Shown: positions 7,395 to 64,000 of the stretch, piece by piece | How the letters are laid out: each line of letters starts with the position of its first letter | How positions within the stretch are numbered: the first letter of the stretch is position 1 | Made by a program: the position numbers and the translations under genes | Notes under the pieces: generated by a model | What the model was told of the DNA's origin: nothing | Seen by the model: only the letters and a program-made list of their open reading frames with translations | Database searches by the model: none | NCBI RefSeq assembly: GCF_031877795.1 | Contig: NC_133954.1 | Location: forward strand, 6,291,256 to 6,355,255 | Length of the DNA: 64,000 nt | Direction: 5' to 3' | Source of the DNA: Strix aluco | Taxonomy: Eukaryota > Chordata > Aves > Strigiformes > Strigidae

Positions 7395-7481
7395 AAAATA
7401 TTCCACACTGCGCAGCGGGGCAGAATGCTCTGTGCTCCAGGTGTCTGGCCAGACCTTGGGGGACCCAGGGTGTTGGGGACC

Positions 7482-7518
7482 ATGGGGATCCTGACTTTGG
7501 TGCTTTGTAGCTGCTCAG
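7482..7518 (+). CDS. ZPBP-like exon 1: signal peptide
   Basis: The exon encodes MGILTLVLCSCS plus the first base of the next codon, then a GTAAAA donor. The ATG sits in a good context (ACCATGG). The upstream in-frame ATG at 7425 would give a 31-residue leader with the same hydrophobic core; both starts remain possible. The phase-1 end matches exon 2. Confidence 0.65.
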
Positions 7519-10500
7519 GTAAAAGATGAGGGTGGAGGTGGAGATATTCTGCTCTGACTCCTTGGAGGGCCGAGGGCCTAGAAGAGGAGACCAGAGTGAG
7601 GTGAGCACCCTCCAAGCTGAGCCTGAGCACTGCCCCTCTGCTTTCCTCCTAGGACAGCCAGCGTCCCTTCCAGCCATCTCCAGCTGGGAACACCAAGGGG
7701 GTGAGCTCTGCAAAGCTGGACCTCCCTGAGCCCTGCGCTCCTCCTGCCTGGGTGAAGTAGTCTTCCCATCCAGCCTGTCTCCAGGGGCTGGTGAGAGGAC
7801 CCTCTCCTCGCTGCCCACTCCACCAATGACCTGGGCAGAGGATGTGGCGTCCCAGTCACAGCCAACACGAGCAGAGATGGCCCAGTCTGGTCTCCACCAG
7901 CTCTGCTTACCACAGCCGCACTTCTTGCCACTTATTCCTCCAGCTCCTGGCCTTTTCTCTCCTCTAAGCACATAAACAACCCCAGGCCTCCATGTAGGAT
8001 GGTCCCCAATGGGTCTGGGTCCATCCACATGCCACACAGGTTCCCAGCCTGCTCCAGCGGCTTCCCAACCCTCCTCTCTGCTCAGCTCCAGGCCTGCTTT
8101 TTGCAATGCCCTGAAATTCCTCAAATGTGTCCCCAGTTTTTGTCTCTCTTTCTCTGGACTAGGCCTTGTCTTCATCCACACAGCGAGCAGCCTGTATTCA
8201 CTGACCTGCAGCCCTATCAGGATGGAGTCAGCTGATCACACCTACCACTGGGTGCAGGACAGGGCAGGTAAGGTCCCAGCTCCTCTCATCTACACAGTCA
8301 GGAGCAAGCAGCTGCAATGGGCTCTGCTATTGTGAGGAATAGAGGGGTAGGAGGGGAAACAGCCACCCAAGGAAGAAGCAGGTCTGTGGAGCAGGTGAGG
8401 GGCACATGAAGACTGGGATCTCCTAAGACTGCATGTGTTGGGGGTTGCTGAACTGCAAAAAGGACATGAGTTATGGGGTAATACTTACTCCTTTTTCTGT
8501 CCTAATAAGGTCTGAGAAGTTTTGTTAAGAAAGTTTTCAGGCATTTGGATGGTTCTTTTGTAGAACTTGACATTTCTGGCAGAAGAGAGGGCACTGGGTT
8601 TCTTAATTTCTTCCCTCTCCCTCAATAACTTATCAGAGAAGGAAGGGGAAGAGCAGCTTTGAGGGTCCTTGTAGAGTCTCAGCAGTGGTTTAAGGAGACG
8701 AAATCTGGGACAGTCCAGGAGAGCATGACACAGCCACACAGTAACTAGGACAGCTCAGCAAGGACAGCCAACTCCTGGTGATCACCGTCAACCTCTCTGT
8801 CTCCTGCACTAGCCCCCAAGTTGTTGTCAGTCACCAAAGAGGGACATCTCCTCTTCCACCACTTCCAAGCAGGTGACAGTGGGAAGTACTCCTGCACCAT
8901 CTCCTACATGAAGCACGGGGTCCACGTGTCCCAGATATTTCACTACAGCATCTTTGGTGAGTCCAGCATCATGCTAACAAGCAGGGGGACCAAGAAAACA
9001 AGGGCAGGGAGGACAGAGAGGCCATGGGGTGAGAGGAGGGGTGGGACAATACTGAGCTCTCTGCACAAGAGAGCTCTCTCGGTAAGGGGGAAGAACCAGG
9101 CACCTTTCAGGGTTTTCTTCCACAGGCTACCATGTGCTTGGAGGCCTGGACACTGTGCTGCTCTTCCACAGCAAGCTCTGTGAGGATAAGTGGACCAGAA
9201 AGTTCCCGTGGGTTCTACAATATAAGCTGAGGCAGCTAGAGATCAAGCAGCACTGCAAACTCCAGGGCACTGCCACCTGCTTCCCCTCGCTCAACAACCC
9301 TTCGGATAAGTTCATCATCCAAGTACAGCTAGAAGGTAGAGCCCCGGGCAGAAGCTCCACAGCAGAGTCCCCAGGGGACAACGGAGGCAGTGGGGTGGAG
9401 TGAGAGGAATTCAGACCTCACAGTTCATGCTTGCAGGGGGAAGAGGGAGGCAGCACAGAGCTGAAGGGAGTGTAGTGAAATTAGGGGAAGGCAGTGGTGT
9501 TGAATGGCTAGATTTGTTGAGGGCTTTGCCCATCTCCTGCTGGAGCTGGGGCTGCCTGAGCTGCACCGGTGACTCTTTGTACTCTAGTGTCCCTCTTTGG
9601 GCCCCACTGGGACAAACACTGCAACTCTCAGGACATGGAGACAGTCACAGACTGCTACCACAAAACAGTCCGGCACAACCTCTGGCAGGTAAGCCCTGGG
9701 GCCAGTGTATGGCAAAGCAGGGAGGATGGCACAGGGTGGGGGGAGGTGGGGGGTTGGAACCAGGACACTCTCTCCAGTCCCAGGTAGCTTCAGCAGTGCT
9801 GGAATGAAGAAGAGCACCCCTAAGGGTTTGCTCACTCTCTCTGGGGCCCAGCTAGAGCTCCCACTCAGGCTGGTGTGCGGTGCATGTCCCCCCTGGCTCA
9901 CACACCCCAGCACCCGCACTATGGCACGGAGAGGACATTTCCTGTGCAACAAGGTCTCAGCTTCCTCTTGGACGCTAACATTGCCCTGCTGAGCTCTGCC
10001 TGCTCTGCACTCCCCAGGTCCAGCTCGCCCGTACCAGGTTCTTCAAGGAGCACAAGTCCTTCCATGTCACTGGGGCTGATATCCCCAGCATCAACTTCAC
10101 CAATGAGTTTGTCGGCTTCTTAAAGACCGAGCAGTGCAGCGGGGGCTATGGGCAGACCAAGCAGCTGCAAAGATGTCTCAACTGTTGCAGTAAGCCAAGA
10201 GTCCACAGCCCTTTGGTCCCCTCTCTCCTTTCCCCCAGCTTGTGTCTTCCTCTCCCCATGCACAGCTCCGTGTTTCTGGGCTCTTGTTGCTCTCCCCGCA
10301 CACTCCCAGCCCAGGGATTGTAGCGGACAGGGTAATTCTGAGCCCCGAAGCATCAGGGCTCAGTTTCTCTGACTTTTTGTTGATACAACTTTATCAAGCA
10401 GCCAGTGCCATTGCTTAGAAAGGCTTTTCTACTTGTCATCTCCTCAGTTGTATGCCCGCCAGGGACGGTCAGCCCTCCTAAGAACAGCCAGTGCTCCCCA

Positions 10501-11778
10501 TGCCCTGTTGGGACCTACAGCCTGACCTATGGGGTGGCATTTTGCACTCCCTGCAAGGACAGCATGATAACCGCAGTGCCGGGTGCCAGCTCCATGATGG
10601 ACTGTGTCAAGAAGGAAAGGACCAAGCAGGGTACACAGATCATCTGCTACTGAAGCAGGGCAAGGGGGGACTGGGGACTCTGAACTGAAGACAGACACTA
10701 CAGTGGGACCTCAGAGCAGCTGCCCCAAATATTAGCCATGGCAACTTTTACAGCCCTTGGAGGTCCCTTTGGAGACAGGTAGTTCTTGTCTCTTCCATCA
10801 CCATCCCTGAAAAGATCACAGCTCCCTTGCTGCTCTTCACACCAGGCCAGTCCTGAACAATCTGATTTCTCTCCACCTTGGTGTCCCCAACTTGCCTTGA
10901 GCACTGACAGCCTCACTGCTAGGAGTAACGTAGGTAACAACATCCCTGCCTGTCTCTGGGGCTGGGGAGAATTAGCATCAGGATTATCTCCAGGGCCTTC
11001 TTCCTCTGAGTCTTCTCCCTTTGAGTCCATCCCACTGATTTCTCTCTCCTCAGCTGTCTCCATCACACACAGGATCCCAGTCCTGCTTCTTATCATCTTG
11101 CCAGTAATACTAGCCATCAACTTTCTCTTCATCCTGTAAGTCTGAGCTCTTTCTCCCAACATGAGTCATTTTGGGGGCAGCTTGTTGATGTTGAGTCCCC
11201 CAGCTCAACATTCCTCTTTGGAACAGGAGATGAAGGAAAACCTGAGCCCATCACTGAAACCAGCAGGAGGTGGCATGCCAGAATAAGCATGCAGAACACC
11301 AAAAGCTGGGATAATCCTTGGCAATAGCTTACACAGCCATATAGGGAGTGGTTAGGTATGGCCTAGGGGAATTCTGGCCCTGAGAGTTGGTGCTGGGTGG
11401 CTGCAGGGTTCTGGTGCTGGCTCCTGGCATGAAGTTCCCATTTTTCACTATGGGCTTCTGTCTTTCTGTAGCAGCTCTTGTTACTGGTTCTATCAAGAGT
11501 ACCAGGTGTCACCTCCAAGGGCTTCCAAGATGACAGGAAGCACCACGAGGATGGAGACGGTGACCAGTTTCTTCAGGATGCCCAGGCAGGGCCCCCACGC
11601 TGGCCCTGGTGCTGGACCTGCCAGTGACACCAGTCACCTGGACACCAGCGAATCTCAGGGGGGTGATGAGGAGCACACACATGGAGCATCACCCCTTGCT
11701 GTGACCCTGAACCTTGCTACTGTGGCCGATGAGACAACTCCTGTACTGACACTGGAGGACAGAAAGGACACTTTTTGA
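7482..11778 (+). CDS. ZPBP/Sp38-family membrane protein, ten exons (ZPBP-like)
   Basis: Ten exons join in frame: 7482-7518, 7653-7700, 8163-8267, 8813-8956, 9126-9335, 9588-9688, 10018-10189, 10448-10630, 11054-11135 and 11475-11778. All introns are GT-AG, the phases match, and the total is 1386 nt (461 residues plus stop). The protein has a short signal peptide and an Ig-like domain (Cys44, Trp58 and the DSGKYSC motif at 85-91). An Sp38-type middle region follows, ending in an RCLNCC-like cluster. Next come a CPPGTVSPP-type GCC2/GCC3 module (about 275-325), a transmembrane helix (about 341-361) and a tail rich in Ser, Thr and Asp. ZPBP proteins are acrosomal and bind the egg coat. The Ig pattern HxxS...LxC...W...GxLxFxxF...SGxYxC and the terminal CCxxCxPG motif match my memory of ZPBP. 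Those mammalian proteins lack the extra cysteine module, helix and tail, so this may be a separate paralog. An in-frame ATG at 7425 would add 19 residues. The gene is firm; the family is likely; orthology is unsettled. Confidence 0.8.
7653..7700 (+). CDS. ZPBP-like exon 2: short linker after the signal peptide
   Basis: This is a 48-bp, phase 1-1 exon with a good pyrimidine tract and TAG acceptor and a GTGAGC donor. It encodes GQPASLPAISSWEHQG, a plausible mature N-terminus. It could be skipped without changing frame. It is supported only by its splice sites and phase, so it is less certain than the downstream exons. Confidence 0.6.
8163..8267 (+). CDS. ZPBP-like exon 3: first half of the Ig-like domain
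   Basis: This phase 1-1 exon encodes LVFIHTASSLYSLTC and then a YHWVQD segment. These carry the first Ig cysteine (Cys44) and the core tryptophan (Trp58). It is flanked by CTGGACTAG and GTAAGG. Confidence 0.8.
8813..8956 (+). CDS. ZPBP-like exon 4: second half of the Ig-like domain
   Basis: This phase 1-1 exon contains GHLLFHHFQAGDSGKYSC, the typical F-strand DxGxYxC signature with the second Ig cysteine (Cys91). A tyrosine-rich strand follows. The donor is GTGAGT. Confidence 0.85.
9126..9335 (+). CDS. ZPBP-like exon 5: Sp38-type middle region
   Basis: This phase 1-1 exon of 210 bp includes LLFHSKLCEDKW and CKLQGTATCFPSLNN. It supplies cysteines downstream of the Ig fold. In ZPBP the equivalent part, as I recall it, is the poorly characterised Sp38 region. 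The donor is GTAGAG. Confidence 0.8.
9588..9688 (+). CDS. ZPBP-like exon 6
   Basis: The exon encodes SLFGPHWDKHCNSQDMETV and a following DCYHKTVRHNLWQ segment, entering in phase 1 and leaving in phase 0. The acceptor is ACTCTAG and the donor GTAAGC. It contributes two cysteines to the Sp38-like region. Confidence 0.8.
10018..10189 (+). CDS. ZPBP-like exon 7
   Basis: The exon enters in phase 0 and leaves in phase 1. It includes an N-glycosylation sequon (NFT) and ends with LQRCLNCC, the cysteine cluster that in ZPBP, as I recall, precedes the terminal CxPG module. The donor is GTAAGC. Confidence 0.85.
10448..10630 (+). CDS. ZPBP-like exon 8: GCC2/GCC3-like cysteine module
   Basis: This phase 1-1 exon of 183 bp encodes CPPGTVSPP, then CSPCPVGTYS, then CTPCKDSMI and a final MMDC. 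That spacing is typical of GCC2/GCC3 (ephrin-receptor-like) repeats. The module sits directly outside the membrane helix and may act as a stalk. Confidence 0.85.
11054..11135 (+). CDS. ZPBP-like exon 9: transmembrane helix
   Basis: The exon enters in phase 1 and leaves in phase 2. It encodes a basic HRI followed by PVLLLIILPVILAINFLFI, a clear single-pass helix. The acceptor is TCTCCTCAG and the donor GTAAGT. Confidence 0.8.
11475..11778 (+). CDS. ZPBP-like exon 10: cytoplasmic tail and stop
   Basis: The exon completes the helix edge (SCYWFYQEYQV) and encodes about 95 residues of low-complexity tail rich in Ser, Thr, Gly and Asp, ending in RKDTF and a TGA stop. The acceptor is a NAGNAG type (GTAGCAG), so an isoform with one extra codon starting at 11472 is possible. 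No domain is recognised in the tail. Confidence 0.75.
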
Positions 11779-11963: not shown

Positions 11964-11969
11964 AATAAA
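11964..11969 (+). terminator. Poly(A) signal of the ZPBP-like gene
   Basis: AATAAA lies 186 bp after the TGA stop, with GT-rich sequence about 50-70 bp further on. This gives a short 3' UTR and fits the end of the gene. Confidence 0.75.

Positions 11970-43406: not shown

Positions 43407-45000
<1,594 letters not shown>

Positions 45001-47997: not shown

Positions 47998-64000
<16,003 letters not shown>

Follow-up and report, generated by a model that had tools for sequence, protein, structure and literature searches.

The 64,000 nucleotides of Strix aluco contig NC_133954.1 that were analysed here (hereafter the window; C24:6291256-6355255 in our naming of the 1.41 Gb assembly) hold, at positions 7425-11778 of the forward strand, a gene that we read as a probable third member of the ZPBP (Sp38) family, beside ZPBP and ZPBP2. 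Its ten exons splice in frame through nine GT-AG introns without an internal stop (Table 1), as an initial annotation of this DNA had proposed; the product is, however, 481 residues long from the ATG at 7425, or 462 from Met20, rather than the 461 given there. This second methionine opens a compact stretch that resembles a signal peptide. Chance does not explain the open frame: each of the five alternative frames of the spliced coding sequence holds 11 to 25 stops, and none of 2000 within-exon base shuffles was open (mean of 17.5 stops). Between exons 8 and 10, candidate exons were retained if they had an acceptor tract with at least 9 pyrimidines in 12, a donor matching at least 6 of the 9 consensus positions (a filter that exons 7 and 8 of the gene itself would not pass) and an open reading in phase 1. 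Two candidates passed, and only 11054-11135, which encodes a transmembrane helix, ends in phase 2, as the reading of exon 10 requires; the view that the helix exon was picked from among many equivalent candidates was rejected on this ground.

Table 1. Features of the window, with positions counted from its first base
Feature	Positions	Strand	Remarks
Exon 1	7425-7518	+	Holds the start ATG; signal peptide, assigned by eye, begins at Met1 or in a more compact form at Met20 MGILTLVLCSCSG
Exon 2	7653-7700	+	48 bases, phase 1-1
Exon 3	8163-8267	+	Sp38-type Ig domain, first half
Exon 4	8813-8956	+	Ig domain, second half (DSGKYSCTISY)
Exon 5	9126-9335	+	Central ZPBP-like region; intron phases the same as in the ZPBP2 model
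Exon 6	9588-9688	+	Central region (FGPHWDKHC...DC)
Exon 7	10018-10189	+	C-x2-GYG...C-x2-CC; EGF_Sp38_C segment begins
Exon 8	10448-10630	+	Ephrin_rec_like (GCC2/GCC3) module in full; residues 297-344, at about 10462-10605
Exon 9	11054-11135	+	Transmembrane helix VLLLIILPVILAINFLFIL at residues 362-380; exon 10 completes the last codon
Exon 10	11472-11778	+	Cytoplasmic tail (about 100 residues) up to the stop codon
AATAAA polyadenylation-type signal	11964-11969	+	Starts 186 bases beyond the end of the stop codon
RPRML (reprimo-like) single-exon open reading frame	43410-43742	-	Presumed member of the reprimo family
ITGB3 exons	53272-63557	+	Found with a human probe and by Pfam integrin EGF domains; gene runs past the window end

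A Pfam search of the product returned eight matches at E up to 5. Ephrin_rec_like, at residues 297-344, scores 34.3 bits against a cut-off of 23.1 and has its full standard length of 48 positions within exon 8. The Sp38 Ig domain (PF07354, residues 57-116) scores 23.3 bits, barely above the curated cut-off of 23.1, and EGF_Sp38_C (PF20626, residues 274-324) scores 23.2 bits, just under its cut-off of 24.0, with an E of 7e-5 and positions 1-49 of the 50 in the profile; the five other matches are all under their cut-offs. The best 19-residue Kyte-Doolittle hydropathy is 3.15, at residues 362-380, and marks a single strong helix followed by about 100 residues, for which the same search gave no Pfam domain match at E up to 5. 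Both the ZPBP-like Ig domain and the single-pass helix with its tail, as first described from the sequence, are therefore borne out, and the predicted gene model does not end in the way of the soluble ZPBP proteins, by a stop within the exon homologous to exon 8 and without a helix. Among solved structures, the 8 and 27 matches obtained (Ig, thyroglobulin and other chains) include no ZPBP entry.

The family is represented twice more in this genome. The Sp38 profile matched four exons, of which two lie on C24 (about 9.2245-9.2253 Mb) and two on C1 (about 76.84-76.85 Mb), and the seven matches of EGF_Sp38_C (E up to 1) include four above the cut-off, all of them at these C24 and C1 loci; neither profile hits the window gene exon by exon in the genome search. 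The C24 locus is ZPBP2 (9.2245-9.2290 Mb), about 2.9 Mb from the window gene on the same contig. It is flanked by an IKZF zinc-finger match (9.195-9.197 Mb, found with a probe) and by an ORMDL gene (9.2475-9.2495 Mb), like human ZPBP2 in what we take to be the human order, IKZF3-ZPBP2-ORMDL3, so that the place of ZPBP2 between IKZF and ORMDL is held by a gene other than ours. The remaining Sp38 exons lie on a separate C1 locus (76.84-76.87 Mb), which we take, by elimination, to be ZPBP, and from which the window gene is likewise distinct. A relocated ZPBP2 or ZPBP was accordingly rejected, as both are present elsewhere in the same genome. When the whole protein was searched against the genome, 23 matches were obtained at E up to 10, ten of them the window gene itself; the 13 others all fall within residues 275-386 (best E 1.4e-4), and close further copies were rejected for this reason. 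The search also misses ZPBP and ZPBP2, and hence speaks only against close copies and not against diverged ones. At C25:4.2465 Mb, C16:12.803 Mb and C5:0.56 Mb, it is the Ephrin_rec_like part of the protein that is matched, and nothing else of it (best E 1.4e-4).

The alignment, the cysteines and the introns all show the window gene to be a homologue of ZPBP2. The MAFFT alignment places 14 of the 15 cysteines of the ZPBP2 model (288 residues) on cysteines of the window protein. The intron phases agree at all five introns compared and the positions are exact at four of them, the fifth being off by 3 residues, in a comparison that omits exons 1 and 2 and in which the ZPBP2 model was drawn with the phases of the window gene in mind. 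Because separate ZPBP2 and ZPBP loci exist and the gene is homologous to ZPBP2, the proposal of a third family member, also made in the initial annotation, is supported within this genome. The same annotation had regarded the cysteine module as an addition. The alignment sets YGARSC of ZPBP2 on YGVAFC of the window protein, the fourth cysteine of the module (a local alignment of the two ends one cysteine short of this), and since the cysteines of ZPBP2 align to the first four of the module, it is probably not simply extra; what appeared as such probably corresponds to the later half of a module, the earlier half of which is already present in the family. What stands is that the window gene completes the module beyond the point where ZPBP2 ends. 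No residual module was seen by eye 3' of the ZPBP2 stop codon.

To our knowledge, ZPBP1 and ZPBP2 of mammals have no membrane anchor. That ZPBP and ZPBP2 stop early holds in the owl for ZPBP2, which stops after YGARSC; in ZPBP, the corresponding YGATKC and stop occur only in a frame other than that of the VVCNPG with which the last exon starts. The ZPBP locus looks decayed (76.86-76.87 Mb; L010:3883-4073 and L011:504-601). Its exon 7, at 191 bases versus 178 in ZPBP2, is put out of frame by a tandem duplication of 13 bases, and exon 6 was not found in a search with ZPBP2 exon 6. Assembly error may be the cause of this appearance. Phosphoproteome papers on turkey sperm and seminal plasma, moreover, list the product of a gene written ZPBP (PMC12027420, PMC11432639). 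The Ig exons of the ZPBP model are 105 and 144 bases long (L008:828-932 and 9659-9802), as are those of the window gene (8163-8267 and 8813-8956), and those of ZPBP2 are 126 and 162; the agreement is perhaps due to chance, the ZPBP donor having been chosen by reading frame.

On its far side, the gene is followed by about 31 kb (12000-43400) in which no gene was recognised, the open reading frames there not having been scanned. Probing this interval for MYL4, CDC27 and GOSR2 yielded nothing. The open reading frame beyond it, on the reverse strand, is presumably RPRML and had no Pfam match. ITGB3 continues into the flank (L031). Probes for GOSR2, CDC27, MYL4 and WNT9B found nothing in the flanks of the window (C24, 6.25-6.405 Mb); the human neighbours may be arranged differently here. 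A viral_contigs scan matched its pattern in two stretches, with none confirmed.

Based on these results, we consider it probable that the gene, which looks intact, is a third ZPBP-family member and codes for a type I membrane protein that would act as an acrosomal tether or at the egg coat, and whose full module would be ancestral. One possible mechanism would be that the product is made in spermatids and directed into the acrosome by its signal peptide, that the helix anchors it in the acrosomal membrane, that the Ig and cysteine-rich ectodomain binds glycoproteins of the egg coat or an acrosomal matrix containing ZPBP2, and that the tail links it to the cytoplasmic side. ZPBP and ZPBP2 would then be soluble descendants, shortened at the C-terminus. 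A gamete role is plausible only through the family to which the protein belongs, and the product could be a receptor or a tether. ZPBP1 and ZPBP2 are acrosomal proteins of sperm, with parts in acrosome formation and egg-coat binding. In the parts consulted, a review describes ZPBP1 as intra-acrosomal and male mice without it as sterile, with round-headed sperm and defective matrix assembly (PMC6186287). Another text presents it as the secondary receptor for sperm-zona binding, situated in the membranes or matrix of the acrosome (PMC7827414). ZPBP is also compared between species in a sperm proteome study whose species include the saltwater crocodile (PMC12070448). The literature searched, consulted in part and mostly without subscription journals, names no third ZPBP gene; within it, ZPBPL is given as an alias of ZPBP2, a 2003 paper on a human "ZPBP-like gene" is cited in reference lists, and some further hits to such names are specimen codes. 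If our reading is true, an anchored relative with a cytoplasmic tail means that the family also makes receptor-like proteins, and bird fertilisation gains a concrete candidate at the sperm membrane. It would also point to a membrane-bound ancestor from which the soluble proteins derive by shortening.

Two points weigh against this reading. The gene model is weakest at the donors of exons 7 and 8, each of which matches 5 of the 9 consensus positions; and in ZPBP2 Pfam finds EGF_Sp38_C but no Ephrin_rec_like at E up to 5. As to its age, we advance tentatively that the gene represents an old membrane-anchored third branch ("ZPBP3") that predates the split of ZPBP and ZPBP2 and has the ancestral full module, helix and tail. 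It would be kept beside RPRML and ITGB3 in birds and be absent from mammals, and in this bird it would work with ZPBP2, ZPBP having decayed. An unlikely alternative, though somewhat less so than those that follow, is that the gene arose from ZPBP2 by a recent or lineage-specific duplication, evolved fast and acquired the remainder of the module together with a helix and a tail. The Pfam result for ZPBP2 would fit such an origin, as would the presence of both genes on C24 about 2.9 Mb apart, and fast evolution could account for the low identity. Nevertheless, ZPBP and ZPBP2 share 33-34% identity versus 18-28% between the window gene and either of them, and with the added part a standard domain of 48 positions becomes complete, for which loss in the sister genes is in our view an easier explanation than gain.

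Since the donor of exon 8 is weak, a soluble product is a real rival to the anchored one. Intron 8 would be retained in the main transcript and exon 8 would read on to ...KKERTKQGTQIICY and a stop, exons 9 and 10 being minor or spurious. The in-frame stop indeed lies just inside the intron (10651-10653, reading 10631-10653), and ZPBP2 terminates within the homologous exon. We hold this to be improbable, as exon 9 has a polypyrimidine tract of 12 in 12, a donor of 7 in 9, a fitting phase and a textbook helix, and exon 10 is open up to its stop and then followed by AATAAA. A unitary pseudogene or unexpressed relic, which the apparent decay of ZPBP in the same genome and a possibly relaxed constraint might suggest, is very improbable for a gene in which, at an identity of about 22% to its relative, 481 codons have nonetheless stayed open over ten exons and most splice sites are good.

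The third-member reading can finally be set against known systems. With the proteins that carry Ephrin_rec_like or GCC2_GCC3 modules (PF07699, with thyroglobulin among the solved structures), the window gene shares the full 48-position module of its exon 8. Three thyroglobulin sequences match the window protein, but the match is limited to residues 274-347 and reaches no Ig or Sp38 part of it. ZPBP (ZPBP1, Sp38, IAM38) has the same order of domains as far as its exons were found, and its exon 8 starts at the matching place, with VVCNPG versus IVCPPG in the window gene. It differs in a last exon that gives YGATKC and a stop in one frame, and in the two coding exons that are frame-shifted in this assembly. 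ZPBP2 has in common with the window gene the Ig domain, the central cysteine region, the CC-x2-C-x-PG segment and the intron phases of the shared exons. ZPBP2 differs in its scores (140.7 bits to Sp38 versus 23.3 for the window protein, and 76.1 versus 23.2 to EGF_Sp38_C), and its exon homologous to exon 8 is terminal, ending in VVCDPGTYSPNNAVTCQICTRPRVKKYGARSC and a stop right after YGARSC, with no helix or tail in that exon. Where ZPBP2 terminates, exon 8 of the window gene encodes VCPPGTVSPPKNSQCSPCPVGTYSLTYGVAFCTPCKDSMITAVPGASSMMDC, and the later exons add the helix and the tail.
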